A stretch of DNA of 33,861 nucleotides from Oscillospiraceae bacterium (GTDB lineage: Bacteria; Bacillota; Clostridia; Oscillospirales; Oscillospiraceae), in contig JAFWTG010000053.1 of assembly GCA_017519005.1 (NCBI GenBank), positions 1 through 33,861 of the forward strand, given 5' to 3'. Numbering within the stretch: the first letter of the stretch is position 1; the number at the start of each line of letters is the position of its first letter. The notes beneath the pieces were generated by a model. It saw only the letters and a list, made by a program, of their open reading frames with translations, had not been told where the DNA came from and ran no database searches. Positions 588-24,606 of this stretch are shown one piece after another. Both the position numbers and the translations under genes were made by a program.

Positions 588-615
588 ATTACTTCTTACT
601 TATTACTTCTTACTT
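588..615. repeat. Heptamer array upstream of nth (4 units)
   Basis: Four consecutive 7-nt units alternate ATTACTT and CTTACTT. The array lies between the predicted promoter and the nth start, so it would form the 5' untranslated region. It belongs to the period-7 family found elsewhere in the window. Confidence 0.8.
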
Positions 616-629
616 ACAGGATGACCGCT

Positions 630-1277
630 ATGGAAAAGAAAGAAAAAGCCCTCCGAATCATTGAAGCCTTAAAAGAAGACTACCCCGACGCCCTGTGCGC
701 CCTGCACAGCCAGAAGGACTACGAGCTGATGATCGCCGTGCGGCTCTCGGCCCAGTGCACCGACGAGCGGGTGAACCTGATTACCCCGGCTCTGTTCGAG
801 CGCTTCCCCACCCTGGAAAGCTTCGCTGAGGCCGACGTGGCGGAGGTGGAACAGCTGGTCCACTCCTGCGGCTTCTACAAGCACAAGGCCCGGGACATCG
901 TGCTGGCCTGCCAGATGCTGCTGGCGGACTACGGCGGCAGGGTGCCCGACAGCATGGAGGCGCTGCTGAAGCTCCCCGGCGTGGGCCGCAAAACCGCCAA
1001 TCTGCTGCTGGGCGACCTCTACGGCGTCCCCGGCTCCGTGGTCTGCGACACCCACTGCATCCGCATCTGCGGCAAGCTGGGCCTCACCGACGGCGCCAAG
1101 GACCCTGCCAAATGCGAAGAGCAGCTCCGGGCCGTCCTGCCGCCGGAGGAGAGCTCCGACTTCTGCCACCGCATCGTCCTTCACGGGCGGGCGGTCTGCA
1201 CGGCCAGAAGGCCCGCCTGCGAGCGCTGCTCTCTGGCTCCCTTCTGCGCATATTTCAATTCAGAACAGGAGAACTGA
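630..1277 (+). CDS. nth: Endonuclease III (DNA glycosylase/AP lyase)
   Basis: Base-excision repair enzyme that removes oxidised pyrimidines and nicks the resulting abasic site by beta-elimination. The 215-aa product has the usual family length. The helix-hairpin-helix motif LPGVGRKTA carries the catalytic Lys, VCDTHCIR carries the catalytic Asp, and the C-terminus has the iron-sulfur loop C-X6-C-X2-C-X5-C that ligates a [4Fe-4S] cluster. The ATG at 630 is preferred over the in-frame ATG at 621 because AGG at 618-620 then lies 9 nt upstream; the RBS is weak compared with its neighbours. A heptamer array forms its leader. The next gene starts one base after the stop codon, so the two are probably co-transcribed. 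Confidence 0.96.
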   Translation: MEKKEKALRIIEALKEDYPDALCALHSQKDYELMIAVRLSAQCTDERVNLITPALFERFPTLESFAEADVAEVEQLVHSCGFYKHKARDIVLACQMLLADYGGRVPDSMEALLKLPGVGRKTANLLLGDLYGVPGSVVCDTHCIRICGKLGLTDGAKDPAKCEEQLRAVLPPEESSDFCHRIVLHGRAVCTARRPACERCSLAPFCAYFNSEQEN

Positions 1278-1278
1278 T

Positions 1279-1737
1279 ATGGAGCTGCAATACGATCCCG
1301 CAGGGCGCTCCCTGCTGAAAACGACAGGCGTGCTGATGATCGTCTTCGGCGTCTTCGGCTGCCTGACTTATCTGCTGGGCCTGGCGGCTGTGACCGGTCT
1401 GGCCTACGCCACCAGCGGCATTTTCTCCGCCGTCAACGATCTGGTGGGCATGGGCCTGCTGCTGGCCGGGGCCGTCGTGGAGCTGATTACGGGCATTCTG
1501 GGCGTCCGGGCGGCCAAACGGCCGGCGCGGGCCGGGAAGGGCCGCGTGGTCTGGGGCGTGCTCTGCCTGCTGCTGAGCCTGGCGGGCCTCGTCCACATCG
1601 CGCTGCGAAACGTCGACGCGCCCCGCTGGGCGCTGGCCTTCGGCATGGTCCTGGGCGCCGTGGTCCCGGCGGTCTATCTGATCGGCGCGGCCCGGGTCCT
1701 CCGGGGCCCCGTGGCCGCGGAGCCGGAGGAGGAGTAA
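1279..1737 (+). CDS. Small four-helix membrane protein, unknown function
   Basis: A 152-aa hydrophobic protein not assigned to a named family. About four membrane segments are visible: residues ~15-40, ~55-78, ~88-108 and ~117-138, with a basic loop (KRPARAGKGR) between the second and third and an acidic tail (EPEEE). The RBS AGGAG (1267-1271) lies inside the end of nth and the ATG starts one base after the nth stop, which suggests translational coupling. The gene ends just before a strong terminator. The link to DNA repair may be positional only. Confidence 0.8.
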   Translation: MELQYDPAGRSLLKTTGVLMIVFGVFGCLTYLLGLAAVTGLAYATSGIFSAVNDLVGMGLLLAGAVVELITGILGVRAAKRPARAGKGRVVWGVLCLLLSLAGLVHIALRNVDAPRWALAFGMVLGAVVPAVYLIGAARVLRGPVAAEPEEE

Positions 1738-1759
1738 CCCTGCGCGGGGCATGATAACA

Positions 1760-1811
1760 CGCAAACACCGGAGAGCAAGACGCTGCTCTCCGGTGTTTGC
1801 GTTCTGTTTTC
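1760..1811. terminator. Strong intrinsic terminator between convergent genes
   Basis: A perfect 18-bp stem (1760-1777 with 1784-1801) encloses a 6-nt loop and is followed on the plus strand by TTCTGTTTTC. It closes the nth operon; the same hairpin lies just past the stop of the minus-strand lipoprotein gene and may act in both directions. Confidence 0.88.
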
Positions 1812-1827
1812 ACGCTTGGAAACCTGA

Positions 1828-2604
1828 TCAGTCCAGACGGATGGTCTGCCAGCGGTACTCCGCGCCGTCCAGGGAGGGGATGGGGGCCAGAACGACCGGC
1901 TTCCCGTCCTCGGGGCAGACCATCAGCTCCGGGTTGACGCAGCGCTCGGAGCCGCAGCGCTCCAGGGCCTCGTAATAGCCGTAGTCCTGCCGCTGCGCCT
2001 CGGTCAGGGACTCGTACTGCGCCGCAAAGCGTTCGCGGAAGGCTTTGCGGCAGCGCTCCAGGAAGTCCTCCTGCGAGACGCCCAGCAGCTTCAGCACGTC
2101 CGCGCTGCTCAGCCAGCGGCCGGTGGAGATCTCATAGCAATAGAAGCGGCATTCGCTCACGCCGAAGTCCATTTCCGCCGTCAGCTCCAGCGTCAGCACG
2201 TCCGCCCAGAGGCGGCTGCGGAAGCCCACGCGCCGGACGGAGAGGCCCAGCCGGTCCTCCATATCCGCCTTGGCCTCCCGGATCCAGCCGCCGAAGAGGC
2301 GGTCGATTTCCCCATTGACGGCCGCGGCGCCGGGAGTTTCGGCGTCCAGCGCGGGCAGCTCGTAGCTGTATTCGTATTCGTTGCCGAGATCGTCCTGATA
2401 AGTTCCCCGATCAAACACCACGGTTTTGATCAGCGGCGGGACTTCCGGCGCCGCGGTCTCAGCGGTCACTGCAGTCTCGGCGGTCTCGGCGGTCTCGGCG
2501 CCGCGGCCGGGCTCCGCCGTTTCAGCGGCCCCGGCGGGGCCTCCGGCGGCGCAGCCGCTCAGCAGCAGGGTCAGGGCCAGGAGCGTCAATATGAGCTTTT
2601 TCAT
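1828..2604 (-). CDS. Lipoprotein with a DUF3298/RsiV-like domain (tentative)
   Basis: A 258-aa exported lipoprotein. The start at 2604 is set by GAGGAGGG just upstream and by the signal peptide MKKLILTLLALTLLLSGC with a clear lipobox (LSGC). A low-complexity linker of TAE repeats (residues ~25-50) leads to a globular domain. That domain has a YEYSYELPAL strand, an (A)VNGEIDRLF helix and YEISTGRWLSSADVLKLLGV, a pattern seen in DUF3298-type domains of RsiV/PdaC-like proteins; the assignment is by eye. It is 38 nt downstream of the NAGPA-type glycosidase gene and is the last gene of that operon, so a cell-envelope role is inferred. Confidence 0.75.
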   Translation of the reverse strand: MKKLILTLLALTLLLSGCAAGGPAGAAETAEPGRGAETAETAETAVTAETAAPEVPPLIKTVVFDRGTYQDDLGNEYEYSYELPALDAETPGAAAVNGEIDRLFGGWIREAKADMEDRLGLSVRRVGFRSRLWADVLTLELTAEMDFGVSECRFYCYEISTGRWLSSADVLKLLGVSQEDFLERCRKAFRERFAAQYESLTEAQRQDYGYYEALERCGSERCVNPELMVCPEDGKPVVLAPIPSLDGAEYRWQTIRLD

Positions 2605-2642
2605 CTTGTCCCTCCTCGATCCTTGAATCGGGCTGCGCGAAC

Positions 2643-4109
2643 TTATTCGCCCACGTAAACCCAGGCGTTGGGCAGATGGCGGCCCTCGGGAATGGCCGCG
2701 TTGGAGCAGCGCATGACAGGCTCGCCCTTGTACCACATGATGGCTGTGGTGCCGCCGTCACAGTTCATGGCGGTGATGCCGTCGTGCCGCAGCAGGACCT
2801 CGGCGCAGACGGTGACGCTGCAGCCGGGGGAGGCCAGGGTCCGGCCCTCCACGGCCAGCATCAGGATCTCGCCGCGCTTGGACTGGCCGATGCAGGCTCT
2901 GGGGTTCTGGCTGGTCCAGATGCCGGGATCCAGCTTCTTGCCGTTGATCAGCAGGGCGGGGCTGAACTCCATGGCGTCGGTGGTCTCCTTGTTGACGGGG
3001 TCGAAGGTGTCGGTGATATAGAACCAGTGCTTGTCGCCCCGCATCTCCAGGCGCTTGTAGCCCCACTTGAAGGGCGTGCCCTTGTACTCCTTGCCGTCGC
3101 ACATGGCGTAGCCGCAGACCTGGCCGCCGTTGCCCACGCCGCCCTCGTCCTCGAAGCCGCTGCCGGTCAGGGCCAGGATGCCGCCGTTGCGCTTGGCGAT
3201 CACGCCGGCGGTCTCGCCGCGGTAGGGCAGGTTGGAGGCCGGGTAGAGATGGAGCCGGGAGGGCAGCTTGGCGATGGCCAGCACGCCGCGGGAGCCGTCG
3301 CAGTCCACCTCCAGCAGGAGGACCTGATTGCGGGTATCGATGGCCAGAACCTTCTCGCCCAGGCGGGTGTAGATGTCGGTGCCGTCCTTCTTCAGGCTGC
3401 TCTCGTTGATATCCACGCTGCCGTAGCCGTTTGCCAGGGCCTCGGGGTGCGCCTGGAAGTAAGCCTCCGCGCTGTCGATGTCCAGCTCATAGAACAGGGC
3501 GTAGAAGGCCTTTTGCTCCGCGTCCAGCTCCTCGAAGCCGGTATCCATGGTGGGCGCGTTGGAATCCGTGGGATCGGTCCAGATATGGACGTCGGCGTCG
3601 GCGTTAAAGTCGTCCACGGTGTTGTCGCCCACCTGGGCGTCGCGGCCCTTCGCCTCCCGCTCGGTGACCTCCTGCACAACGGAGGGCGGGAAGTAATAGG
3701 TCGCCAGGCCCTGGTGCCGCATGGTGGACCAGGCGGTGGAAATCCACCGCTCACGGTATTCCTTGATCAACGGCAGGTCGGAGAAGACCGCCGTCACATA
3801 GCAGATCGCAAAGATCAGGAAGAGGCAGAGCAGGCGCTTCCAGGCCTTGCTGCGGATCACTGCCCAGATCAGGGCGGCGGCGCCCAGCGCAAGGACGGCC
3901 AGCAGCGCGATATTGACGGTCTGGCTGGCCTCAAAGGCCTTTTGACGGTGGGTCAGCTGCATGATGATGGTATAGAGCAGGAACAGATCCATCAGCAGCA
4001 GCACCGAGAACAGGATCTGTTTTCCGGCGCTGCAGCGCTTCCGGCTTCCGTCGCCGCGGACGGCCGCGAAGCGCCCTCCGCCCTGCGCGTTTCCGTTGAA
4101 TTTACCCAT
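2643..4109 (-). CDS. Membrane-anchored phosphodiester glycosidase (NAGPA/DUF2233 family)
   Basis: A 488-aa protein. Residues ~28-50, ~65-84 and ~90-110 are three membrane helices. After a linker, the C-terminal ~200 residues match the NAGPA-type phosphodiester glycosidase fold: FSPALLINGK, NPRACIGQSKRGEILMLAVEGR and the hallmark NCDGGTTAIMWYKGE, then RHLPNAWVYV. Family members cleave sugar-phosphate diesters and are often annotated as exopolysaccharide biosynthesis proteins; here the domain should face outside. The start is supported by AAGGAGG 8 nt upstream. It lies 46 nt downstream of mnmA with no terminator seen and precedes a lipoprotein gene. The substrate is unknown. Confidence 0.88.
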   Translation of the reverse strand: MGKFNGNAQGGGRFAAVRGDGSRKRCSAGKQILFSVLLLMDLFLLYTIIMQLTHRQKAFEASQTVNIALLAVLALGAAALIWAVIRSKAWKRLLCLFLIFAICYVTAVFSDLPLIKEYRERWISTAWSTMRHQGLATYYFPPSVVQEVTEREAKGRDAQVGDNTVDDFNADADVHIWTDPTDSNAPTMDTGFEELDAEQKAFYALFYELDIDSAEAYFQAHPEALANGYGSVDINESSLKKDGTDIYTRLGEKVLAIDTRNQVLLLEVDCDGSRGVLAIAKLPSRLHLYPASNLPYRGETAGVIAKRNGGILALTGSGFEDEGGVGNGGQVCGYAMCDGKEYKGTPFKWGYKRLEMRGDKHWFYITDTFDPVNKETTDAMEFSPALLINGKKLDPGIWTSQNPRACIGQSKRGEILMLAVEGRTLASPGCSVTVCAEVLLRHDGITAMNCDGGTTAIMWYKGEPVMRCSNAAIPEGRHLPNAWVYVGE

Positions 4110-4155
4110 TAGGGGGTCCTCCTTTGTTTCTGTGGAATGTCTGTAAGCGTAAGGA

Positions 4156-5217
4156 TCAAATCAGCTCGCCGCCGCCCAGGACCGTATCGCCGTCGTAGAC
4201 CACGGCGTGCTGGCCGGGGGTGACGGCCCGCTGGGGCTCGTCGAAGTCCAGGCGGACGCCGCCGTCCTCCAGCGGCGTCAGCAGGCAGGGCTGCTCGGCA
4301 TGGCGGTAGCGAATCTTGGCCGCGCAGCGGATCGGTCCCGCCGGCGGCGTCCCGGAGATCCAGTGGAAGTTCTCCGTCCGCGCCGTCCGCGTGAAGAGCG
4401 CGCTGCGGGGGCCCAGGGTGACGGTGTTGGCCGCGGGGTCCAGCCGTACCACGTAGTAGGGCTCGGAAAAGGACAGGCCCAGGCCCCGGCGCTGGCCCAC
4501 GGTGTAGTGGATCAGCCCCCTGTGGCGGCCCAGGACGGTCCCGTCCGGGCTCACAAAGTCGCCGGGCTCCGGCCGCAGGCCGGTCCGCTGCTCGATCACC
4601 CGGGCGTAGTCCCCGTCGGGAACGAAGCAGATGTCCTGGCTGTCGGGCTTTCGGGCGTTCACGAAGCCCTTTGCCTCGGCGATGGCCCGGACCTCGGGCT
4701 TGCGCAGCTCCCCCAGGGGGAAGCGAACCCGGGCCAGCTGCTCCCGGCTCAGATGGTAGAGCACGTAGCTCTGGTCCTTGTCGGGGTCCAGGGCCTTTTT
4801 CAGCAGCAGTCTGCCGTTTTCCTCCACGATGCGGGCGTAGTGGCCCGTGACGACGGCGTCGCAGCCCAGCTCCCGGGCGCGGCGGTCCAGCCGGTCAAAT
4901 TTCAGCCAGTGATTGCAGTCCACGCAGGGATTGGGGGTTCGTCCCGCCAGATAGCTGCGGACGAACTTGTCGATGACCTTCTCCCGAAAATCGTCGGAGA
5001 AATTGAATACGTAGTGGGGAATGCCCAGACGGAAGGCCACGGCGCGGGCGTCCTCCACGTCCTCCAGGGAGCAGCAGCTGCGCTCCCGGGGCAGGCCGGC
5101 GTCCTCGTTTTGAAAGAGCTTCATGGTGCAGCCCAGGCAGTCCCAGCCCGCCTCCAGCATCCGCAGGGCGGCCACGGCGGAATCCACGCCGCCGCTCATG
5201 GCGATCAGTGCTTTCAT
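4156..5217 (-). CDS. mnmA: tRNA-specific 2-thiouridylase MnmA
   Basis: Installs the 2-thio group on the wobble uridine (U34) of Lys, Glu and Gln tRNAs using ATP and persulfide sulfur. The 353-aa product has the normal length. Visible motifs are the PP-loop SGGVDSA (residues 8-14), the catalytic NPC (Cys98), TGHYARI and the second catalytic Cys197 in [11 protein letters not shown]. It has the [11 protein letters not shown] segment after the N-terminal fold. The ATG overlaps the stop of the upstream DUF2207 gene (ATGA), and its RBS AAGGAGG lies inside that gene, so translation is probably coupled. Confidence 0.97.
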
Positions 5218-7064
5218 GGGCGGGGCCTCCTTTGGACGTCATGGGCGCGGGCTTTGTTCCCGCGTGCTTGCGCGGCGCTCCGGCGGGCGGCCTCCCGGGA
5301 CGGCGGACGCCGTTCGCCGGGGCTCCGGCGGGGCGGAGTCACCCGGGTGGAGACCTGCCGCTGCTGCCGCTGCTCGGGGCGGGGCCTGGCCGCCGGGTCA
5401 CGCTCGCCCCGGAGCCCTGCCATCAGTCGCCTGTAGCGGGCGTAGAAGGCGGGCGCGGTATAGCAGGGCTTGCCCTGCCAGAGCAGCCAGCCGCATTCCT
5501 CCATCCGGACCCGGTCCAGGGTCGCGGCCACCATGCGCCCTGCGCAGAGGGCGTCGGCAAAGGGCAGGACCCGGTAGAAATACTGCGGGTCGGCCGCCAG
5601 ATTGCTCTGCAGCTGCTCTGCGGAGGCGGAGAGGAGCCAGCGGCGGTAGCCCAGCAGCTCCGAGGCCAGGGCGGCGCCCTCCGCCGTGCGGCGGCCGCCG
5701 CAGCGCAGCAGCAGACCCACGGCCAGCTGCAGCGCCAGATTCAGCAGCGACAGCGCGCTCAGACCGCCTCTGCGGCCCAAAATCAGCAGGAACGCCGCGC
5801 TCAGCAGACCCAGAATCGCCGTGCGCAGGCTGTGCCGCCGCAGGAGGAAGCCGCCCAGCTCCTGAACCGCCAGGCAGGCCAGCCCGCCCAGCAGGGTCAT
5901 GGGAACGATCAGGAACCAGCGCCAGCTCTTGGAGGCCACCCAGAGGTCGAAGCAGGCCAGGCAGAGGGCCAGGCCGGCCCCCAGGGCCAGCAGCCGCAGG
6001 ATCCAGGGCGCGCCGGCCCTCGGATCGTAGACCCGGTCGCGCCAGAATTCGCGGGTCTTCTCGCCGCAGAGCCGCCTGGCCTTCAGATACTCGGCGCTGC
6101 GCAGATCGCAGTGCTCGTCGCGGGCGAACAGGGTGTCGAATATCTCCACCTCGTAGCGCTTGCGCTCCGTGTCCATGTCGATCTGCCGGGTCAGCCAGAT
6201 ATTCCCCCGCTTGGTGCGGCTGACGGTCAGATAGCCCAGAGAGGCCCATTGAATCACCATCAGCGCCAGGTCGGGCTTGCGGTCGGTGAGCACGTAGGGA
6301 ATCTCGCCCGCGTTGCCGCCCTCCGGCGGCATGGCCTGCCGCTTGGGCAGGATGGGCAGATTCCGCAGGAAGATCAGCCAGTAGAGCAGGGCCAGCGCCA
6401 GCAGGCCCAGGAAGAGGACCCGGTCCACGCGGACCGTCTTGCCGGCCAGGAAGCGCAGATCGAAATAGCCCTCGGGCAGCTCCAGCTCCAGGGTCATGGA
6501 CTCCCGGTCCCGGAGCGTCTGCCGGGCGTCCAGAACGGCGTCGATGCTTCCGGCCCGGTCGATCTCGATTTTCATGTAGTTGTCGATCAGCTCGCCGTAG
6601 TAGCCGGAGAAGAAGACCGGCATGGTCTCAAACTGGCCCGGCAGGCTGATCCGGACCCGGTAGCCCGCGATGGGGCAGGTCCAGGCCGGATAGAGCAGAC
6701 GCACGGAAAGCTTCTGAAGCCTGCCGTCGTCGGTGACGGTCTCGGCCAGGCGATAGGAGACGGTGAAGCTCTGCTTCCCGCTCCAGGGGCCGGTGAGAAC
6801 CAGCAGATCGCAGCCCTCGCCGCCCTTGCGGGTATAGGGCGCGGAGCAGCTCAGCTCCCGCGCGGAGGCGGAGACGGGAACCGTGAAGTCCCCGGCGTCG
6901 CCGCCGAACTCCACGGTGAAGCTCAGCGTCAACGTACAGGCGCCGTCGTTTTCCACGGCGCATTCGGTCTTCATTTCCGTGACCGTCGTTCCCTCGGCGG
7001 AGACCGCCGTCGTGAGCAGCAGCAGCATCAGCAGCGCCGCAGCCGCCAGAAAGAGCTTTCGCAC
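5214..7064 (-). CDS. DUF2207 family membrane protein with Arg-rich tail
   Basis: A 616-aa exported membrane protein. I chose the GTG at 7064 because AAGGAGG precedes it and it opens a signal peptide ([23 protein letters not shown]). The N-terminal ~200 residues form a beta-rich extracellular domain (AYTRKGGE-type strands, YRLAETV, YPAW). A membrane helix follows ([18 protein letters not shown]), then a cytoplasmic segment with [23 protein letters not shown] typical of DUF2207, then further helices. The last 65 residues hold about 19 Arg and many Pro, unlike the Gly-rich ends common in this family. The function of DUF2207 is unknown. It shares an ATGA overlap with mnmA. Confidence 0.86.
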
Positions 7065-7129
7065 GGGGCCTCCCCCTCCTTTCGCGCGTTCATTCAGCTT
7101 ATCATACCACAAGCGGCGCAAAAAAGCAA

Positions 7130-7151
7130 GGAAAACCGTCGACGGTTTTCC
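7130..7151. repeat. 22-bp perfect palindrome
   Basis: The half-site GGAAAACCGTC is followed directly by its reverse complement with no spacer, centred on the SalI-like GTCGAC. It lies between the mscS terminator and the DUF2207 start. It could be an operator for a dimeric regulator, or part of a repeated terminator cassette. Confidence 0.75.
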
Positions 7152-7163
7152 CTGCGCAGTGTC

Positions 7164-7193
7164 AAAAAAGCAGCCCCGCAGGGCTGCTTTTTT
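7164..7193 (-). terminator. Intrinsic terminator after mscS
   Basis: A stem of GCAGCCC/GGGCTGC is extended by A6/T6 flanks (7164-7176 with 7181-7193) around a CGCA loop. On the minus strand the stem is followed by a T run, which would end mscS transcription before the DUF2207-mnmA operon. The symmetric flanks allow it to work in both directions. Confidence 0.85.
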
Positions 7194-7209
7194 GTATGGA
7201 TCGTCGGCC

Positions 7210-8088: not shown

Positions 8089-8140
8089 GCTTGCTTCCTC
8101 CTTTGTCATAATCGTAGGCGTGAGGACTTCACGCAGAATA

Positions 8141-8168: not shown

Positions 8169-8234
8169 GCCCCGAAAGGAGCAAATCCGCGCATCCGGCG
8201 AAAAAACGGGCTTTCCTTCCGGCGGAAAGCGTGC

Positions 8235-16533: not shown

Positions 16534-16581
16534 ATTTATGTGCCTCCCTGTGTATATTTCGGGGGTATTGTTTTGAAATTG

Positions 16582-16682
16582 GAATGAAGAATTAAGAATT
16601 AAGAATTAAGAATCAGGAAGTAAACATTCAGAAGCATCCCGCAGATAATTCTTACTTCTTACTTCTTAATTCTTACTTGTTC
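16582..16682. repeat. Two facing heptamer arrays between plsX and trmFO
   Basis: The left array (16582-16623) is six 7-nt units of the GAATTAA type; the right array (16648-16682) is five units of ATTCTTA/CTTCTTA type, its approximate reverse complement. The 24-nt centre is unrelated. The arrays could pair into a long AT-rich hairpin. The right array runs into the 3' end of trmFO and provides its last residues and stop. Confidence 0.88.
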
Positions 16683-17969
16683 CAAGGCGGACAGCGCGCG
16701 CTCGGCGATGGCCAGGTTCTTGTTCGCCTTGCCCTTGACCCGCCGGCCCAGGGGGGGCAGCAGGCCGAAGTTGATATTCATGGGCTGGAACTTCGTCACC
16801 GAGGGATCGGAGATATAGCGGCCCAGGGCACCGACGGCCGTCTCGGCGGGGAACTCCGGCACGGGCTCGCCCTTCACGCGGGCGGCCATGCAGACCGCGG
16901 CCAGGAAGCCGGAGGCCGTGGACTCCACGTAGCCCTCCACGCCGGTCATCTGCCCGGCGAAGGCCACCAGAGGATTGCGCCGGTCGGCGTAAGTCCGGTC
17001 CAGCAGGCGGGGGGAGTCCAGGAAGGTGTTGCGGTGCATGACTCCGTAGCGGAGGAACTCCGCGTGCTCCAGGGCCGGGATCATGGAGAAGACCCGCTTC
17101 TGCTCCGGGAAGCGCAGGTGGGTCTGGAAGCCCACCAGGTTGTAGACGGACCCGGCGGCGTTGTCCCGGCGGAGCTGGACCACGGCGTAGGGGTCCTTCC
17201 CCGTCCTCGGGTCCGGCAGGCCCACGGGCTTCAGAGGGCCGAAGCGCAGGGTGTCCTCGCCCCGCCGGGCCATGACCTCCACGGGCATGCAGCCCTCGAA
17301 GACCTTGCCGTCCTCGAAGCCGTGGACCGGGGCCTCCTCCGCGGCGGCCAGCTCCCGGACGAAGGCCTTGTACTGCGCCTCGTCCAGGGCGCAGTTGACG
17401 TAGTCCGGGGTCCCCCGGTCGTAGCGGGAGGCGAACCAGGCCTGCTCCATGTCAACGGATTCAAAGCTGACCAGGGGGGCCGCCGCGTCGTAGAAGCTCA
17501 AATAGCCCGCCCCGCCGAAGTAATCCATGATGGCTGCGGACAGAGGCTCCGAGGTCAGAGGGCCTGTTGCGATGATCACAGGGCCCTCGGGGATCTCTGT
17601 GATCTCACGTTCCTCTACGCGGATGCAGTGGTGAGAGCGGATGCGCTCCGTCACCAGCCGGGAGAAGCCCTGCCGGTCCACGGCCAGGCAGCCGCCGGCC
17701 TCCACGCGGGTCGCGTCCGCGCAGGCCAGGATCAGGCTGCCGCAGCGCCGCAGCTCCTCCTTCAGCAGGCCCACGGCGTTTTCCAGCCGGTCCCCCCGCA
17801 GGGAGTTGGAGCACACCAGCTCGGCAAAGTCCGGGCTGTGATGGGCCGGGGTCATCTTCAGCGGCTTCATCTCGATCAGCCGGACGGCCAGCCCCCGTTC
17901 CGCCAACTGCCAGGCCGCCTCGCAGCCCGCCAGCCCAGCGCCGACGACGGTAACTGTTTCGTAGTTCAT
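16659..17969 (-). CDS. trmFO: tRNA (m5U54) methyltransferase, folate/FAD-dependent
   Basis: Methylates U54 of the tRNA T-loop using methylenetetrahydrofolate and FADH2. The 436-aa product matches the family. Seen: the FAD-binding VVGAGLAGCEAAWQLAERGL at the N-terminus, FAELVCSNSLRGDRLENAVGLLKEE, PVIIATGPLTSEPL, and the C-terminal GQMTGVEGYVESTASGFLAA and PMNINFGLLPP. The ATG at 17969 is chosen because GGA lies 6 nt upstream; no strong RBS is present. The final residues VRIKK and the TAA are encoded by a heptamer array. The dprA-topA-trmFO order is typical of Firmicutes, here with a lipoprotein gene inserted before trmFO. Confidence 0.96.
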   Translation of the reverse strand: MNYETVTVVGAGLAGCEAAWQLAERGLAVRLIEMKPLKMTPAHHSPDFAELVCSNSLRGDRLENAVGLLKEELRRCGSLILACADATRVEAGGCLAVDRQGFSRLVTERIRSHHCIRVEEREITEIPEGPVIIATGPLTSEPLSAAIMDYFGGAGYLSFYDAAAPLVSFESVDMEQAWFASRYDRGTPDYVNCALDEAQYKAFVRELAAAEEAPVHGFEDGKVFEGCMPVEVMARRGEDTLRFGPLKPVGLPDPRTGKDPYAVVQLRRDNAAGSVYNLVGFQTHLRFPEQKRVFSMIPALEHAEFLRYGVMHRNTFLDSPRLLDRTYADRRNPLVAFAGQMTGVEGYVESTASGFLAAVCMAARVKGEPVPEFPAETAVGALGRYISDPSVTKFQPMNINFGLLPPLGRRVKGKANKNLAIAERALSALEQVRIKK

Positions 17970-17978
17970 AAGCATTCC

Positions 17979-18006
17979 AAGTAACAAGTAATAAGTAATA
18001 GGTAAT
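17979..18006. repeat. Heptamer array upstream of trmFO (4 units)
   Basis: Units AAGTAAC, AAGTAAT, AAGTAAT and AGGTAAT lie between the lipoprotein gene and the trmFO start, beginning 10 nt before the ATG. The array occupies the place where a Shine-Dalgarno sequence would be expected. Confidence 0.8.
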
Positions 18007-18060
18007 AAGTTTAGATACTTCTTACTGATTCCTTTTTCTTCGACCCGCCGGCGATGGCGA

Positions 18061-18678
18061 TCAGCCGATGCTCGCCCCGATCTCCGGTCCGTCCGGCGTC
18101 GGTTCCAGGTACCAGTACCAACCCGGAGCGATCTCCTCAACGGCAATCGCCGCCTTCGAGAAATCAGCCGGGTCGCCGGAGGCGTCAGGACACCAGATCA
18201 GCTCGCACCAGTACAGCGGGTGTCCGCTGGAATCCTCCAGGCTTTTGAGAAAGACGCAGCCCAGGCTGCCCAACTCCCAATCGTCGGTATAGAGCAGATC
18301 GAAAAGCTCCGTACCGCGCAGAAAGCCCGCGGCGTCCAGGATCGGATGCTCCCGCAGCTTCTCCTGCGGTACGTGCTCGCCGCTCTTGTATGCGTACAGG
18401 CCCCCGTCCCGGGGATAGAATTGATAAATCACGCTTGCCCCATGGGATTCCAGCATGCACGCAGCCAGCGCTTCCATCTCGACGGGATGGGCCTTGAGAA
18501 AGGCCTCCGCCTCCTGCCGGATCTGCGCCAGCCGCGCTTCCTCCGACGCAAGCCCCGTCGTTTCCGGGCCTTGCGTGCCGGAGACGGCTTTCGTCGTCTC
18601 ATGAGCCGCTTTTGGCGTGCAGGCGCTCAGGGATATCAAAGCTGTGAGCAGAAGCAGAAGCACAAGCGCCCGTTTCAT
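18061..18678 (-). CDS. Lipoprotein of unknown function
   Basis: A 205-aa exported lipoprotein, family not recognised. The signal peptide MKRALVLLLLLTALISLSAC ends in a lipobox (LSAC). A Thr-rich spacer leads to a helix (LAQIRQEAEAFLKAHPVEMEAL) and then a Trp/Tyr-rich domain with several Cys (CELIWCPD). Its ATG overlaps the topA stop (ATGA) and its RBS GGAGG lies in the topA 3' end, so it is translationally coupled to topoisomerase I. This is an unusual place for an exported protein within the dprA-topA-trmFO set. Confidence 0.82.
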   Translation of the reverse strand: MKRALVLLLLLTALISLSACTPKAAHETTKAVSGTQGPETTGLASEEARLAQIRQEAEAFLKAHPVEMEALAACMLESHGASVIYQFYPRDGGLYAYKSGEHVPQEKLREHPILDAAGFLRGTELFDLLYTDDWELGSLGCVFLKSLEDSSGHPLYWCELIWCPDASGDPADFSKAAIAVEEIAPGWYWYLEPTPDGPEIGASIG

Positions 18679-20984
18679 TTTTTGTCCTCCGAAGCTTTCC
18701 GCGTTTTGGTGCTTCCGGCAGCAGATTTTTTCGCGGCAGTCTTTTTCGTTGTCGTTTTCTTCGCGGCGGACTTTTTGGCGGTCGTTTTCTTCGCGGCAGC
18801 CTTTCTCTGGTTCCCTGCGTCCTGCTCCTTGCTCTCTGCTCCCTCCGCCGCCTCGGCGGCGGCCTCGGGCTTCTTATAGTACCCGCGCTTGTCCTCGGGC
18901 AGGAAGTTCTCGCACTTCTCGTTGATGCAGAAGGGCTTCATGCGGCCCTTGCCGCTGCGCTTGAACATGGTCTGGCCGCAGGCGGGGCAGTCCTGATCCG
19001 TGGGCACGTCCCAGGTCATGAAGCCGCAGGCGGGGCCGGTCTCGCAGGCGTAGAAGGCGTAGCCCTTCCTGGACTTGCGCTTCAGCATCCCGCCGCCGCA
19101 CTTGGGGCAGCGGCCCGGCATGTGCTCCACGATGGGCTTGGCGTTCTTGCACTCCGGATAGCCCGGGCAGGCCAGGAACTTGCCGAAGCGGCCGAACTTG
19201 ACCACCATCCGCCGTCCGCAGAGCTCGCAGACCTCGTCGGAGAGTTCCTCGGGGACCTTGATCCGGGTGTCCTTCAGGGCCTCCTCGGCCTGCTCCATCT
19301 CCTTGTGGAAGCCGTCGTAGAAGTCCCGGAGCACCTGCTTGTAGTTCAGCTTGCCGGCCTCCACCTGGTCCAGCTTGTCCTCCATGCCGGCGGTGAACTC
19401 CACGTCGATCACGTCGTTGAAGCGGTCCAGCATCAGCTGGGTGACCACCTCGCCCAGGGGGGTGGGCTCCAGCTTCTTGTCCTTCTTGACCACGTACTCC
19501 CGATCCTGGATCGTGGAGACGATGGAGGCGTAGGTGGAGGGACGGCCCACGCCCTTCTCCTCCATGGCCTTCACCAGGGTGGCCTCGGTGTAGCGGGCGG
19601 GGGGCTGGGTGAAGTGCTGCTCGGGCCTGCTCTCCACGTGGCGGAGCGGCTCGCCCTCCCGCAGCTCGGGCAGGGCGTCCAGCTTTTCCTCGTTCTCGTC
19701 GTCCCGGCCCTCCTCGTAGACCGCCAGGAAGCCGGAAAACTTCAGGCTCTGGTGGTTGGAGCGGAAGGTGTGGCCCTTGCAGTCGGTGTCGATGACGGCG
19801 GTATCGTAGACGGCGTTGGACATCTGACTGGCCACGAAGCGGCTCCAGATCAGCCGGTAGAGTCGGAGCTGATCCCGGGTCAGGTCCTTTTCCAGGCTGT
19901 CGGGGTCCAGGCGGACGTCGCTGGGCCGGATGGCCTCGTGGGCGTCCTGGGCCGCGCTCTTGGTCTTGAAGCGGCGGGGGGCGCCGGGATGGAAGGCCTT
20001 GCCGTAGCGCTCCTCCACGTAGTCCTTGGCGGCTGCCAGCGCCTCCTCGGACAGGCGCAGGGAGTCGGTACGCATATAGGTGATGAGACCCACGGCGCCG
20101 TGGCCGCTGAGCTCCACGCCCTCGTAGAGCTGCTGGGCGATGGCCATGGTGCGCTTGGGGGTCATGTTGAGCTTGCGGGAGGCCTCCTGCTGGAGGGTGG
20201 AGGTGATGAAGGGGGGCGCCGGGCTCCGGCGCTTCTCCGCCTTTTTGATCTCCCGGACGGTGAAGGTCCGGCCCTGCACGTCGTTCAGCACGGCCCTGGC
20301 CTCCGCCTCGTTGGCGAGGCCGCGCTTCCTGCCGTCCTCGCCCAGGTAGTGGGCCTCGAAGCGGCCCGGCTTTTCCACGCATTCCAGGGTCACGTCCAGA
20401 GACCAGTATTCCTCCGGCACGAAGGCCCGGATCTCGTTCTCCCGCTCCACCACCAGGCGGGTGGCGACGGACTGGACCCGGCCCGCGCTGAGGCCCCTGC
20501 GGACCTTCCGCCAGAGCAGGGGGGAGAGCTGGTAGCCCACGATGCGGTCCAGGATGCGGCGGGCCTGCTGGGCGTCCACCAGGTCCAGGTCGATGTCCCG
20601 GGGCTGCTGGATGGCCTTGGTGACCACGCCCCGGGTGATCTCATTGAAGGTCACGCGGCGGGTCTTGGCGGCAGGCAGCTCCAGCAGCTCCTTGATGTGC
20701 CAGGAGATGGCTTCGCCCTCCCGGTCCGGGTCGGTGGCCAGGTAGACGGTGTCGGCCTTGTCGGCAGCCTTCTTCAGCTCGCGGATCAGCTCCGCTTTTT
20801 CCTTCATGGGGATGTATTCCGGGGTAAAATCATGCTCCAGATCCACACCCATGGTGCTCTTGGGCAGGTCCCGCAGGTGGCCCATGCAGGCCTTCACCTG
20901 GTAAGCCGGCCCGAGATATTTTCCGATGGTCTTCGCCTTGGATGGCGACTCCACGATCACAAGATCGGGATTTTGCTTTGCCAT
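18675..20984 (-). CDS. topA: DNA topoisomerase I with lysine/alanine-rich tail
   Basis: Relaxes negative supercoils by transient single-strand cleavage. The 769-aa product has the TOPRIM motifs VESPSKAKT (Glu12) and DPDREGEA (85-92), and the active-site Tyr303 in GLITYMRTDSLR. The zinc-ribbon repeats are CELCGRRM...CPGYPEC, CPKCGGGM...CETGPAC and CPACGQTM...CINEKC. After ~residue 710 comes a basic low-complexity tail built from AAKKTTAKKSAAKK, probably a non-specific DNA-binding extension. Just before the tail, a degenerate heptamer array is in the coding sequence. AGGAGG lies 10 nt before the ATG. dprA is upstream and a coupled lipoprotein gene downstream. Confidence 0.97.
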   Translation of the reverse strand: MAKQNPDLVIVESPSKAKTIGKYLGPAYQVKACMGHLRDLPKSTMGVDLEHDFTPEYIPMKEKAELIRELKKAADKADTVYLATDPDREGEAISWHIKELLELPAAKTRRVTFNEITRGVVTKAIQQPRDIDLDLVDAQQARRILDRIVGYQLSPLLWRKVRRGLSAGRVQSVATRLVVERENEIRAFVPEEYWSLDVTLECVEKPGRFEAHYLGEDGRKRGLANEAEARAVLNDVQGRTFTVREIKKAEKRRSPAPPFITSTLQQEASRKLNMTPKRTMAIAQQLYEGVELSGHGAVGLITYMRTDSLRLSEEALAAAKDYVEERYGKAFHPGAPRRFKTKSAAQDAHEAIRPSDVRLDPDSLEKDLTRDQLRLYRLIWSRFVASQMSNAVYDTAVIDTDCKGHTFRSNHQSLKFSGFLAVYEEGRDDENEEKLDALPELREGEPLRHVESRPEQHFTQPPARYTEATLVKAMEEKGVGRPSTYASIVSTIQDREYVVKKDKKLEPTPLGEVVTQLMLDRFNDVIDVEFTAGMEDKLDQVEAGKLNYKQVLRDFYDGFHKEMEQAEEALKDTRIKVPEELSDEVCELCGRRMVVKFGRFGKFLACPGYPECKNAKPIVEHMPGRCPKCGGGMLKRKSRKGYAFYACETGPACGFMTWDVPTDQDCPACGQTMFKRSGKGRMKPFCINEKCENFLPEDKRGYYKKPEAAAEAAEGAESKEQDAGNQRKAAAKKTTAKKSAAKKTTTKKTAAKKSAAGSTKTRKASEDKK
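18813..18844. repeat. Degenerate heptamer array inside topA
   Basis: Units CCCTGCG, TCCTGCT, CCTTGCT and CTCTGCT keep a 7-nt period and sit in the topA region encoding ESKEQDAGN, between the zinc ribbons and the basic tail. It is less regular than the other arrays, so chance similarity is possible. Confidence 0.5.
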
Positions 20985-21004
20985 GTATCCATTTCCTCCT
21001 GTAG

Positions 21005-21023
21005 GGACGGCACTCTGCCGTCC
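21005..21023. repeat. Short palindromic element between topA and dprA
   Basis: GGACGGCA and TGCCGTCC form an 8-bp stem with a CTC loop, preceded by TGTAGG. Its 19-mer recurs in reverse orientation inside dprA (about 21274-21292) with one mismatch, so this is a dispersed element. Confidence 0.7.
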
Positions 21024-21068
21024 GTGTCGTGTATTCGCAGCGCAGAGACAGGCCCTGCGGTTTGTGTT

Positions 21069-22340
21069 TCAGGATAATTCGTATATCTTCCCGGGCCTCT
21101 GGGCAACGCGTTTTTTGATTTGCAGGAGCGTAAGCTGGGGAAGAATCAGAGACGCGGCGATACCGGTACGGTCGATCAGCGCGTCCAGCTGGAGGGGACC
21201 GTCCCGAAGCGCCTCCGCGATCCGCCTCTGGATCGGCGTCAGCGCGGAAAGCTCGATCTCCGCCCGCGCCGGGGCGGACGGCAGAGCGCCGTCCCCGCGG
21301 GGCTGTTCATGCTCGGGCGGGGCGTCGAGGGCGCCGCCCCCTACAGTGTCAGCGTTTCGATTCTGTCGTCCTGAGCGGAGCGAAGCGGAGTCGAAGGACC
21401 CGCGTCCCCCGTCTCCTGTTGCCTGTTCCCTGTTCCCTGTTCCCTCGTTTTGCCTTCTGACCGTCCCGGGGTAGCGGAACCGATAGCGCTCCAGCACGTC
21501 CCAGCCGGACTCGGCGGCAAAGGCGCCGTTCCGCAGCAGGGCGTTGCAGCCCCGGCTCAGGGGGTCGTCCGGCGCGCCGGGCACGGCGAAGACGTCCCGG
21601 CCCTGCTCGGCGGCCCAGCGGGCCGTGATCAGAGAGCCGCTCCGCTCGGCGGCCCGGATCACCGCCACGCCGTCGGAGAGGGCGCTGATGAGCCGGTTGC
21701 GGACCGGGAAGCGGCGGGCGTCGGGGGGCGTGCCGGGAGGATACTCCGAGAGCAGACAGCCGCGCGCAGGCACCCGGGCGAAGAGCTCGGCGTTCTCCCG
21801 GGGGTAGACGATATCCGGGCCGCAGCCCAGAACGCCGACGACGGAGCCGCCGCCCTCCAGCGCGCCCCAGGCCGCGGCGGCGTCCACGCCCTTTGCCATC
21901 CCCGTGCAGACCGTGCCGCCGCAGGCGGCGATCTCCGCGCCGAAGCGGCGGGCCAGCCGCAGGCCGGCCTCGTCGGCCTGCCGGGCGCCCACCAGGCCCA
22001 CGATGGGGCGCTCCTCGCCGGGCAGCGTGCCCTTGTAGTAGAGCAGGATGGGGGCGTCCTCCTGGAGCCGGAGCCGGGACGGATAGACCGCGTCCGTCAG
22101 AACGACGGTGCGGACCTCCGTCTGCTCACAGCGCTCCAGCACAGCCCGCGCCGCGCGCAGGTCCTTGTCCAGCAGGGTCCTCCGCAGGGCCGGCGTCACG
22201 CCCGCCCGCAAAAGGGCCTGCTCGTCCGCCGCCCAGATTTCCGCCGGCGAGCCGAAGTCCTCCGCCAGGCTCCGCTGCCCCTTCGCGCCAAGGCCCTTCC
22301 GCTGGGTCAGCCAAATCCAATACAGATCTTGATTCTCCAT
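21069..22340 (-). CDS. dprA: DNA-processing protein DprA with repeat-derived linker
   Basis: Loads RecA on incoming single-stranded DNA during natural transformation. The 423-aa product is longer than many homologues. The N-terminal SAM-like region is followed by the Rossmann-like core: IVGLVGARQADEAG, GGTVCTGMAKGVDAAAAWGAL, VVGVLGCGPDIVYPREN, LLSEYPPGTPPDARRFPVRNR, and AERSGSLITARWAAEQGRDV. The C-terminal winged helix reads LTPIQRRIAEALRDGPLQLDALIDRTG. Between them about 60 residues (near 21275-21455) are encoded by three intergenic-type repeats read in frame. The ATG at 22340 lacks a clear RBS; a TTG at 22355 would lie in a heptamer array. Confidence 0.94.
   Translation of the reverse strand: MENQDLYWIWLTQRKGLGAKGQRSLAEDFGSPAEIWAADEQALLRAGVTPALRRTLLDKDLRAARAVLERCEQTEVRTVVLTDAVYPSRLRLQEDAPILLYYKGTLPGEERPIVGLVGARQADEAGLRLARRFGAEIAACGGTVCTGMAKGVDAAAAWGALEGGGSVVGVLGCGPDIVYPRENAELFARVPARGCLLSEYPPGTPPDARRFPVRNRLISALSDGVAVIRAAERSGSLITARWAAEQGRDVFAVPGAPDDPLSRGCNALLRNGAFAAESGWDVLERYRFRYPGTVRRQNEGTGNREQATGDGGRGSFDSASLRSGRQNRNADTVGGGALDAPPEHEQPRGDGALPSAPARAEIELSALTPIQRRIAEALRDGPLQLDALIDRTGIAASLILPQLTLLQIKKRVAQRPGKIYELS
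21275..21455. repeat. Composite of three repeat types within dprA
   Basis: From left to right: a GGACGG palindrome (about 21274-21292), a GC-rich element with GTCGAGGGCGCCGCCCC (21324-21340, identical to one between prs and pth), a CTGAGCGGAGCGAAGCGGAG element (21371-21390, flanked by GTC/TCGAAGGAC) of a type widespread in bacterial genomes, and a heptamer array with four CCTGTTC/CCTGTTG units (21415-21442). All are read through in the dprA frame. Confidence 0.85.
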
Positions 22341-22353
22341 ACAGATTATGTTC

Positions 22354-22459
22354 AAGTAAGAATTAAGAGGTAAGAAGGAAGAATTGCCCGTATCGAATTG
22401 CGATCCCGTTTTACCTCTTACTTGTTACTTCTTACTTGTTAATTCTTACTTCTTACTTG
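22354..22459. repeat. Two facing heptamer arrays between dprA and the RNA methylase gene
   Basis: The left array (22354-22381) has four units (AAGTAAG, AATTAAG, AGGTAAG, AAGGAAG). The right array (22411-22459) has seven (TTACCTC, TTACTTG, TTACTTC, TTACTTG, TTAATTC, TTACTTC, TTACTTG). They are in opposite orientation around a 29-nt centre, like those between plsX and trmFO. The right array supplies the last Lys and the stop codon of the upstream gene. Confidence 0.88.
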
Positions 22460-23208
22460 CATTCTCTTCTCAGTTCCCATAAAACTACCGTCGCCGCCAC
22501 CGCGGCGTTCAGGGACTCGCAGCGGGGCGACATGGGAATGATGGCTTCCCGGGCCGCGGCCGCCAGAAAGGCCTCGCTGACGCCCTGGCCCTCGGAGCCG
22601 ATGACGGTCACGCAGGCCTTCAGATCCACCCGGCGGATGTCCTCCGCCCGGTCGGAGAGGGCGGTGACGCAGACGGGCAGGCCCCGCGCCCGGCACTGAT
22701 CCAGGATGGCCTGCGTCTCCGCCTGGACGGGCGGACGGCGGAAGACGGCCCCCATGGTGGCCCGGACGGTCTTCTCCCCGTAGGGATCGGCGCAGCCGTC
22801 GGCCAGCACCACGGGAACGTCGAAGGCGTCGGCGGCCCGGAGGATGGTGCCCAGATTGCCGGGGTCCTGGAGCCCGTCCAGGATCAGGCTGCCGGGGACC
22901 AGCTCCAGCGGCGCAGGCTCCGGCATCCGGCAGAGGGCCAGCACGCCCTGGGGGGTCTCCATCCGGGAGATCTCCCGCATAAGCCCCTCGGGCACCCGCA
23001 GCTCCCGCACGCCGGCGGGCACCGGGAAGTCCACGCCCTCCCGCAGGAGCAGGGCGTCCACGCCCAGTCCCCAGCGCAGGGCCTCCTCCGCCAGCTTCGC
23101 CCCGTCGGCCACGAAGGCCCGGTACTCATAACGGTACTTGCGGCTGGCCATCAGCTTGCGCACCAGCTGCACGGTGGCGTTGGTCTTCGAGGTGATCCAT
23201 TCCGCCAT
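22453..23208 (-). CDS. SpoU/TrmH family RNA 2'-O-methyltransferase
   Basis: A 251-aa SPOUT methylase, probably of 23S rRNA or tRNA ribose 2'-OH using SAM. The N-terminal substrate-binding domain starts ITSKTNATVQLVRKLMASRKYR and resembles the RlmB/TsnR type. The knotted catalytic domain shows the three SpoU motifs: LQDPGNLGTILRAADAF, VIGSEGQGVSE and IPMSPRCESLNAAVAATVVLWE. AAGGAGG lies 7 nt before the ATG at 23208. The exact target nucleotide cannot be told. It is the first gene of the long minus-strand run containing dprA and topA. Confidence 0.93.
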   Translation of the reverse strand: MAEWITSKTNATVQLVRKLMASRKYRYEYRAFVADGAKLAEEALRWGLGVDALLLREGVDFPVPAGVRELRVPEGLMREISRMETPQGVLALCRMPEPAPLELVPGSLILDGLQDPGNLGTILRAADAFDVPVVLADGCADPYGEKTVRATMGAVFRRPPVQAETQAILDQCRARGLPVCVTALSDRAEDIRRVDLKACVTVIGSEGQGVSEAFLAAAAREAIIPMSPRCESLNAAVAATVVLWELRRECK

Positions 23209-23241
23209 GAGACATCCTCCTTCTCCCGATCCGGTATGACT

Positions 23242-23247
23242 ATTATA
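23242..23247 (-). promoter_or_regulatory. Predicted -10 element for the RNA methylase gene
   Basis: A TATAAT hexamer lies on the minus strand 34 nt upstream of the start, in the AT-rich divergent gap. The -35 is poor, so support is limited. Confidence 0.45.
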
Positions 23248-23318
23248 TTGTATCGTAGCATAATTTCCCCGCGAATGCAAGAAAAAAAACGCAATTCGAT
23301 TTCCCGCAAAAATTTCAA

Positions 23319-23347
23319 TTGTTTTTTCCCGCAAAGTATTATACAAT
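23319..23347 (+). promoter_or_regulatory. Predicted promoter of the CDF exporter gene
   Basis: TTGTTT (23319-23324) and TACAAT (23342-23347) are separated by 17 nt in the divergent AT-rich gap, 38 nt before the start codon. Confidence 0.5.
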
Positions 23348-23384
23348 AAAGGACGTACAAATACCTGACGGGAGGGACTATTTT

Positions 23385-24485
23385 TTGGATCGCAAACGCG
23401 TAATCATCCGCACCAGCATTCTGGGCATCGCCGCCAATTTGCTCCTGGCCGGCTTCAAGGCGGCCGTCGGCCTGCTCTCCAACTCCATCGCCATCATTCT
23501 GGATGCGGTGAACAATCTTTCGGACGCGCTTTCCTCGGTCATCACCATCGTGGGAACCCGCCTGGCGGGCAAAAGGCCCGATAAGAAGCACCCCTACGGC
23601 CACGGCCGGGTGGAGTATCTCACCGCCGCCATCATCGCGGTAATCGTCCTCTACGCCGGCATCAGCTCCCTGGTGGAGTCGGTGAAGAAGATCATCTCTC
23701 CCGAGACGCCGGATTACAGCGCCGTCAGCCTGATCATCGTGGGCGCCGCAGTGCTGGTAAAGCTGGCTCTGGGCTTCTACGTAAAGAAAACCGGCGAGCG
23801 CGTCCATTCCGACGCGCTGGCGGCCTCCGGCGAGGACGCCAGAAACGACGCCGTCATCTCCGCGGCCACGCTGGTGGCCGCCGCCGTCTATCTGATCTGG
23901 GGCGTCGCCGTCGAGGCCTGGCTGGGCGCGGTGATCTCTCTGGTGATCCTGAAGTCCGGCCTTGACATGCTCCGGCAGACCATCTCCCGCATTCTGGGCG
24001 AACGGGTGGACAGCGAGCTCAGCCTCGGCGTCAAGCAGACCGTGGCCGGCTTCCCGGCGGTGCAGGGCGCCTACGATCTGATCCTGCACAGCTACGGACC
24101 GGATATGATGATCGGCTCGATCCACATCGAGGTGCCGGACACCATGACCGCCGGGCAGCTCGATCAGCTGGAGCGGGAGATCACGGACCGCGTGGCGGAG
24201 GAGCACGGCGTCATCCTCACCGGCATCAGCGTCTACTCCGTCAACACCACCGACGACGTGGTTGCCCGGACCCGGGAGGATATCCGCCGCCGCGTGATGG
24301 CCCACGACCACGTGCTGCAGCTCCACGGCTTCCACATGCACGACGACGAGATCCGCTTCGATCTGGTGGTCGGCTTCGAGGCGAAGGACCGCCGCGAACT
24401 CTTCGCCGCCATCTGCCGGGAGATCCAGGAGGCCTATCCGCAGTATCACGTCTATATCACCCTGGACAGCGACGTCAGCGACTGA
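23385..24485 (+). CDS. Cation diffusion facilitator metal exporter, possibly Mn-type
   Basis: A 366-aa metal/proton antiporter of the inner membrane. TTG at 23385 is taken as the start because GGAGGG (23371-23376) lies 8 nt upstream; an ATG at 23319 has no RBS and coincides with the promoter. Six membrane helices are expected. The metal-site residues read N43xxxD47 in TM2 (AVNNLSDALSS) and D151xxxD155 in TM5 (EDARNDAVIS). That pattern has been linked to manganese-type members rather than the HxxxD/HxxxD zinc type; specificity remains inference. A long cytoplasmic C-terminal domain follows (residues ~205-366), with a His-rich HGFHMHDDE stretch near its end. Confidence 0.92.
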   Translation: MDRKRVIIRTSILGIAANLLLAGFKAAVGLLSNSIAIILDAVNNLSDALSSVITIVGTRLAGKRPDKKHPYGHGRVEYLTAAIIAVIVLYAGISSLVESVKKIISPETPDYSAVSLIIVGAAVLVKLALGFYVKKTGERVHSDALAASGEDARNDAVISAATLVAAAVYLIWGVAVEAWLGAVISLVILKSGLDMLRQTISRILGERVDSELSLGVKQTVAGFPAVQGAYDLILHSYGPDMMIGSIHIEVPDTMTAGQLDQLEREITDRVAEEHGVILTGISVYSVNTTDDVVARTREDIRRRVMAHDHVLQLHGFHMHDDEIRFDLVVGFEAKDRRELFAAICREIQEAYPQYHVYITLDSDVSD

Positions 24486-24606
24486 CGCCCGCAAAACCTC
24501 CTCTGCCCGCAGGGCAGGCAGCGTGATAAAAAGTTGAAAAACACCTCCATTTTCAATTTTCAACCTTCAATTTTCAATTCGATTCAGGACTGGAGATAAC
24601 AGTCGA
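24486..24606. other. Gap with repeat remnant and heptamer array
   Basis: No gene is seen. The left part (24486-24520) is a decayed copy of the 149-bp-type element (GCAAAACCTCCTCTGCCCGC). The array at 24550-24577 has four 7-nt units (TTTTCAA, TTTTCAA, CCTTCAA, TTTTCAA) with an inverted GTTGAAAA just upstream near 24532. Confidence 0.75.
24550..24577. repeat. Heptamer array, TTTTCAA type (4 units)
   Basis: Four perfect-register 7-nt units lie about 30 nt upstream of the Gx transporter gene. The unit sequence differs from those at the other loci while the period is the same. Confidence 0.8.

Follow-up and report, generated by a model that had tools for sequence, protein, structure and literature searches.

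How can tandem arrays share a strict seven-nucleotide period while their units seem to change from locus to locus? The question is raised by a 33,861-nt stretch of an Oscillospiraceae genome (contig C57 of genome G000, which is 2.29 Mb in 141 contigs and 86% complete), hereafter the window. Period-7 arrays had been placed at nine sites by the original prediction, and Tandem Repeats Finder (TRF), run on the window, reports period 7 at all of them (589-615, 16582-16613, 16649-16678, 17979-18010, 18812-18844, 21415-21445, 22354-22383, 22411-22458 and 24549-24579). Seven of the nine also pass a strict test, in which at least 17 of 21 successive positions are identical to the base seven further along; the arrays that fail are those at 22354 (78% TRF matches) and 18812 (69%), the latter having been called degenerate from the start. 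At other periods the strict test finds one window array each at 3, 9 and 12, and none at 5, 6, 8, 10, 11 or 13, while 300 block shuffles of the window gave a mean of 0.03 arrays and a maximum of one. The window arrays are real, and we assign a probability of about one half to the reading that they belong to small intergenic inverted-repeat elements, similar to repetitive extragenic palindromes (REPs) and miniature inverted-repeat transposable elements (MITEs), with heptad arms that turn over by slippage.

The changing unit is partly an illusion, as most window arrays are one family read on two strands. This family, NARKTRA (for example GAAGTAA), covers six of the nine arrays (588, 16582, 16648, 17979, 22354 and 22411), and CTTACTT, GAATTAA and AAGTAAT, which had been taken for different units, are strand or rotation variants of it. 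The claim of differing units stands only for 21415 (GAACAGG), 24550 (TTGAAAA) and 18812 (GCAGGGA).

A sample of the same genome, consisting of the window and 19 stretches taken at five-contig steps (261,634 bp; an all-N stretch, L043, was dropped), contains 0, 7, 37, 2 and 5 arrays at periods 5, 6, 7, 8 and 9, and 20 shuffles of it gave a mean of 0.1 arrays and a maximum of one. The excess of period 7 over periods 6 and 8 is therefore not the even distribution that would have spoken against a special period. In an enlarged set of 537,346 bp, to which stretches chosen mostly for their matches were added, there are 131 arrays, typically four to six units long, with 28 canonical units, the commonest being AACAGGG, AGGCATC and AATTCTC. 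Units tend to be purine-rich on one strand, with six or seven like letters in 43 of the 131 arrays against about 17 expected. Twenty sister loci (280,058 bp) carry 6, 48 and 2 arrays at periods 6, 7 and 8, and across own and sister loci 40 arrays follow NARKTRA. Whole-genome counts, scored as places with three successive NARKTRA heptads, were made for the own genome and 23 other species of the genus, and range from 0 (G018, 95% complete) to 266 (G022). An assembly artefact was rejected because NARKTRA is present in 23 of these 24 separately assembled genomes, nine of them having fewer than ten places. Counts of the backward pattern were unusable as negative controls because other heptad families match it. 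In G019, 21 NARKTRA places are accompanied by 283 backward-pattern matches, which suggests another abundant heptad family.

The layout of an element is purine heptads, core, pyrimidine heptads. Own, sister and six other loci together yielded 71 cases of neighbouring arrays within 170 bp. In 31 of these the two arrays are inverted copies of a single unit family, in 23 both point the same way, and in 17 the two are unrelated. Thirty of the inverted pairs are purine-first and one is pyrimidine-first; L079 and L167 are one locus counted twice, so the distinct purine-first pairs number 29 (29 to 1). The sole pyrimidine-first pair has a terminator-like hairpin between what appear to be two elements. 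Purine-first order means that the 3' end of the purine strand faces the core on both strands. Arms are also alike at one locus, in the manner of the terminal inverted repeats by which MITEs are recognized: the mean unit distance is 1.57 between arms of the same locus and 2.44 between loci (35 pairs; 0 of 5,000 permutations), and heptads within one array are closer than those of different arrays (1.28 vs 1.54). The repeat system is real, period-specific and polarised.

A polarity is also seen in the hairpins that lie beside arrays. Two kinds of hairpin occur in the genus, the common GTAG-headed REPs and others with an AT-rich stem headed GGWRT. A perfect hairpin within 40 nt was found at the purine-strand 3' end of 43 of 179 arrays, at the 5' end of 3 and at both ends of 6. 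Upstream of 61 GGWRT hairpins, within 45 nt, there is a period-7 array in 35 cases, a period-8 array in 4, and none at the six other periods tested; downstream, period 7 was found in 4. Of 145 GTAG hairpins, 13 have a period-7 array upstream and 7 have one downstream. When the score is relaxed slightly, 12 of 13 CAAATTGCCATTTG stems have period 7 upstream and one has period 8, all six CAATTCTGCGAATT stems have period 7, and all four CATATC stems have period 8. The strict seven-nucleotide register that had been claimed for the window arrays does not extend to the whole genus, in which some hairpin-adjoining arrays have a period of eight. The octads beside CATATC hairpins suggested to us, by eye, that a hairpin arm might template the adjacent unit.

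The own genome has 30 pairs of GGWRT hairpins that are at least 90% identical (mean 0.95), and the arrays upstream of them average 0.60 identity when compared at the same offset (unrelated pairs, 0.45) and 0.69 when the best register is taken (unrelated pairs, 0.58). When sister species are included, with their orthologues, there are 48 such pairs, with array identities of 0.59 and 0.70. Judged by these identities, the hairpin is copied, and the adjoining array is inherited in part but diverges faster. At the hairpin foot, where REP elements carry a GTAG or GTGG tag, many GGWRT hairpins have GTGGTAT and others GCGG, TCGG, GAGG or ATGG. Six pairs of GGWRT heads lie less than 200 bp apart, all inward-facing, of which one (L013) is a palindrome counted once from each strand; most heads are solitary. 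No gene framed by GGWRT heads and resembling an autonomous element was recognised in the list of these pairs.

Across the genus, genes keep their order between the methyltransferase gene and plsX, and a given gap may be empty in one species, occupied in another and occupied by an unrelated element in a third. Between trmFO and plsX, five species have a gap of 29 to 33 bp, and the others have one occupied by NARKTRA arms, by octads accompanied by a hairpin, by REPs or by composites. In the methyltransferase-dprA gap, G000, G004 and G010 have a core in common, with a difference of 7 nt between the elements of G000 and G004; the core of G005 is unrelated and has arms of its own. By the strict test, arrays are present in 5 of 17, 4 of 17 and 6 of 20 species in three gaps, and their distribution on a three-gene tree, several nodes of which are weak, requires at least four changes in each; hand-scoring that admits degenerate and octad arms gives at least six, six and four. 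Since presence differs between species, the arrays are not fixed and ancient, which answers the comparison of orthologous gaps that the original prediction had proposed as a check.

Beyond the genus, a search of 295 genomes of the order for GAATTGAGAATTGTGGTAT (two mismatches allowed) gave matches in 10, the own genome included, and of eight of its loci inspected by eye, four (L208, L210, L211 and L212) have heptads and four do not. At L212 (genome G091), heptad arms surround a hairpin between what appear by eye to be two tRNA genes, with part of the flank masked. A set of 79 loci (L080 to L158), mostly from other Oscillospiraceae (L131 may come from the same-genus genome G018), has 16 arrays in 1.36 Mb, and a period-7 array upstream of 2 of 55 GGWRT hairpins compared with 1 of 2,677 other hairpins. 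Nine of the 16 arrays are in L130, a locus of a metagenome-assembled genome outside the genus, and form their own unit family, AGCTAAC. Another outside genome, G283, has 19 arrays of period 7 in 400 kb, one of period 6 and none of period 8, and its three inverted pairs are all purine-first.

We propose that an element would comprise purine-rich heptads, a core and reverse-complementary pyrimidine-rich heptads, the core being one or two REP-like, AT-rich GGWRT hairpins in much of the genome and a short unrelated spacer in the window. Such elements would spread as non-autonomous units, copied or mobilised in the manner of REPs or MITEs, and after copying their arms would change by slippage of whole heptads and by in-register substitution, so that the period would be kept while the sequence drifts into families. 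The contrast originally drawn between a generating process and a copied element then looks like a false choice: many of the 131 arrays, for all their 28 units, are inverted arms, and some adjoin hairpins that were copied. A number of results weigh against this proposal. In G283, none of 14 GGWRT hairpins is linked to an array, and the hairpin polarity is absent (2 vs 3). Of the 179 arrays, 127 lack a perfect hairpin within 40 nt; the window has no hairpin of the first GGWRT list, and its cores are short. Mirror-image sharing of heptad variants between the NARKTRA arms of one locus was not significant (p 0.055, 14 pairs), and NARKTRA cores show no resemblance between loci by eye, which fits local formation equally with copying. 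Neither an exact insertion junction nor a target duplication was found in the species compared, and no mobilising enzyme for the elements was found. NARKTRA elements that lack GGWRT hairpins may leave room for local formation.

In an unlikely alternative that nevertheless accounts for several of the observations, no mobile element is involved and purine-rich sequence at the ends of genes undergoes replication slippage with an inbuilt preference for steps of seven nucleotides. The period-7 excess recurs in unrelated genomes, being seen in G283 and in a 350-kb plasmid of Trichormus (12 arrays of period 7, one of period 6 and two of period 8), and a published hypothesis holds that heptamers reflect the segment of DNA held by the polymerase (cited in the part of PMC4692102 available to us). 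The closer likeness of heptads within arrays would follow, and by eye many arrays start at the stop codons of neighbouring genes. Slippage alone, however, leaves unexplained the single polarity of inverted pairs, the likeness of arms at each locus and the one-sided placement of arrays beside headed hairpins, and array density varies greatly among species of one genus.

The position of arrays relative to genes bears on the idea that they are selected regulatory structures, either RNA hairpins or arrays bound by proteins, that would serve at the ends of genes, for example as transcript 3' ends or stop-codon buffers. A simple gene caller places 91 of the 131 arrays between genes, 28 at gene edges and 12 in coding sequence, and the flanking genes are co-directional in 76 cases, convergent in 19 and divergent in 8. 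The purine strand is in the sense direction near stops (37:12 in co-directional and 16:3 in convergent gaps), and the pyrimidine strand near starts (24:11, and 6:2 in divergent gaps); in sister loci the preference near stops agrees (16:3) and that near starts is weak (12:10). Two of four window elements fold better than shuffled sequence (16579..16683, z -4.4; 22354..22459, z -2.9), but the other two do not (17975..18035, z 0.04; 24549..24579, z -0.13), and there is no Rfam match in the window. The arrays in coding sequence, the diversity of units, and neighbours that include ordinary housekeeping genes and have sister-species orthologues without arrays also count against selection, and we regard it as improbable.

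The GGGAATC heptamers of Xanthomonas are a nearer published match than the cyanobacterial repeats to which the arrays were first compared, at least in the portion of the account available to us (PMC4692102, as for the other statements in this paragraph). Heptameric repeats are described there in Xanthomonas and Nostoc (GGGAATC and GGGGA(C/T)T), and, as here, the unit has seven bases, few units are joined, and the arrays are intergenic, dispersed and variable between related species, with divergent gaps under-represented. Xanthomonas has convergent inverted heptamer pairs that lie close together (70 and 75 cases in two genomes), with the polarity seen here if 'convergent' is equated, as we do, with purine-first, and G-rich heptamers of three organisms lie in sense downstream of genes or antisense upstream, the same gene-side strand preference. 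In contrast, those genomes have one unit type each, compared with the 28 canonical units sampled here, and G-quadruplex capacity is central to them, whereas most units here lack G runs and AACAGGG has one run of three; hairpin cores and empty orthologous gaps were not met in the available part of the account. The system resembles the Xanthomonas heptamers in layout and gene position, and we do not claim that the two are one family. One could imagine a dedicated, undescribed end-processing activity that adds purine-rich heptads to both 3' ends where they face inward at a break or insertion, the unit being dictated by the element or by the site. It would operate in Clostridia and also in Xanthomonas, there with other units, and would account for a period and a convergent polarity that recur in unrelated phyla without any common sequence; we consider it a long shot.

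REPs and their REP-associated tyrosine transposases (RAYTs, Y1 or HUH enzymes) offer a further comparison. Like REPs and REPINs (REP doublets), the headed hairpins described here are in high copy, and a few of them lie in inward-facing doublets (PMC3733652 and PMC6006769, in the parts available); the genus carries both GTAG REPs and RAYT genes; they differ in that GGWRT hairpins have upstream heptad or octad arrays and no known enzyme. It is very doubtful that RAYTs are responsible for making or moving heptad elements along with REPs. Y1 genes occur in 21 of 40 relatives, a GTAG hairpin lies within 300 bp of 12 of 19 Y1 genes of the genus (on both sides in 7) compared with 32 of 400 random 300-bp stretches (8%), and period-7 arrays do occur upstream of some GTAG hairpins, but the strong link to arrays belongs to GGWRT hairpins; RAYT gene flanks carry GTAG hairpins, and no GGWRT-flanked Y1 gene was seen. 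One RAYT-like protein matches the REP-associated tyrosine transposase model below the curated cut-off. Several RAYT-like Y1 genes are present per genome (L045:520-1047, L023, L188, with relatives in L189 to L205), many adjoining GTAG hairpins of their own type, and in L188 and L205 the Y1 domain lies within a frame of more than 600 aa that by eye resembles a sugar-kinase fusion.

The own genome also has a reverse transcriptase (L187:2810-4261, contig C27) that matches RT_UG26 in PADLOC (E 3.7e-161), UG26 being a group of candidate defence enzymes. Telomerase-like addition of heptads by this candidate, by analogy with UG17 (DRT10), which is reported to make tandem-repeat DNA (PMC12632851, in part), is the least probable of these explanations: although 9 of the 10 genomes with a full-length UG26 relative are heptad-rich against 5 of the 14 without (24 genomes of the genus, p 0.013), the association is gone outside the main clade (p 0.5), G009 has UG26 with only 2 NARKTRA places, G283, G204, G091, G005, G003 and G012 have no RVT_1 match, seven genomes outside the genus have no UG26 although arrays were seen in six, and a UG-type enzyme is therefore not found wherever arrays occur. 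Both the RAYT as mover and the reverse transcriptase as maker were set aside on these grounds, and both are weakened because G283, which is 99% complete and carries arrays, has no Y1_Tnp or RVT_1 match, with the reservation that profile searches may miss divergent enzymes.

MITEs are short, non-coding, dispersed elements with inverted terminal arms, and the elements described here share all of these features, but their arms are tandem heptads of drifting sequence. The short tandemly repeated repetitive (STRR) sequences of heterocystous cyanobacteria are heptanucleotide tandem repeats. The likeness to them that had been noted extends to the period-7 excess but not to polarity or hairpins: in the one Nostocaceae replicon covered, the Trichormus plasmid, the 12 arrays include no purine-first pair and have no hairpin within 40 nt. 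The TAACTGA repeats of Beggiatoaceae are seven-base direct repeats between genes with a patchy distribution across phyla, but they have one favoured unit, lie before start codons, are rarely accompanied by related heptamers, and are nearly all direct (one indirect repeat, 169 sets), according to the available part of PMC4679880. No description of heptad arms in Clostridia was found in literature titles and abstracts, a search that left out most subscription journals.

Earlier reports of an excess of seven-base repeats in bacteria came without a mechanism. The genus provides a test bed: its two dozen species range from having no copies to having hundreds, their synteny is conserved around gaps that are filled in some and empty in others, inverted pairs obey a strict polarity rule, and the period (7 or 8) seems to differ between hairpin subfamilies. 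Should the polarity that these elements share with the Xanthomonas repeats be more than chance, one process may underlie repeats that were described separately in several phyla.

Table 1. Heptad arrays, arms and cores of the window.
Feature	Position	Strand	Evidence
Heptad array, NARKTRA (TTACTTC on +)	585..617	-	TRF, strict test
Heptad arm, NARKTRA (GAATTAA), plsX/trmFO gap	16579..16622	+	TRF, strict test, pair analysis
Core flanked by both arms, without GGWRT-headed hairpin	16623..16645	.	Sequence, GGWRT list
Inverted partner arm (TTCTTAC on +)	16646..16683	-	Pair analysis
Heptad arm, NARKTRA (AAGTAAT), upstream of trmFO	17975..18011	+	TRF, strict test
Short degenerate stretch, possible remnant partner arm by eye	18012..18035	-	Sequence, fold test
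Degenerate heptads (GCAGGGA on -), coding, topA C-terminal tail	18812..18844	-	TRF, tail alignment
Heptad array (GGGAACA on -), coding, dprA linker residues ~302 to 316	21408..21450	-	Strict test, alignment
Weaker heptad arm, NARKTRA (AAGTAAG), upstream of dprA	22354..22383	+	TRF (78% matches); under strict test
Core common to orthologous elements of G004 and G010	22384..22408	.	Gap alignment
Partner arm (TTACTTC on +), 3' end of SpoU-type methyltransferase gene	22409..22459	-	TRF, strict test, gap alignment
Heptad array (TTGAAAA on -), between CDF transporter and heptaprenyl diphosphate synthase genes	24549..24579	-	TRF, strict test

The first array in Table 1 lies immediately upstream of an endonuclease III-like gene (HhH-GPD match), and no partner arm was found for it. 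The inverted partner arm in the plsX/trmFO gap overlaps the 3' end of trmFO and provides its stop codon. Two window arrays, those in topA and dprA, are contained in coding sequence. The dprA linker joins two domains and is encoded in part by the array; among sister dprA genes (L160 to L165), several linkers have peptides that can be read as other heptads, differing by species, and others have no insert. An additional open frame of 205 aa lies between topA and trmFO (18061-18678); it has no Pfam match and no tblastn match in any of 20 sister loci. At the start of the window (1-355), and also upstream of the endonuclease III-like gene, is a 149-bp tandem repeat of 2.4 copies with 91% matches.

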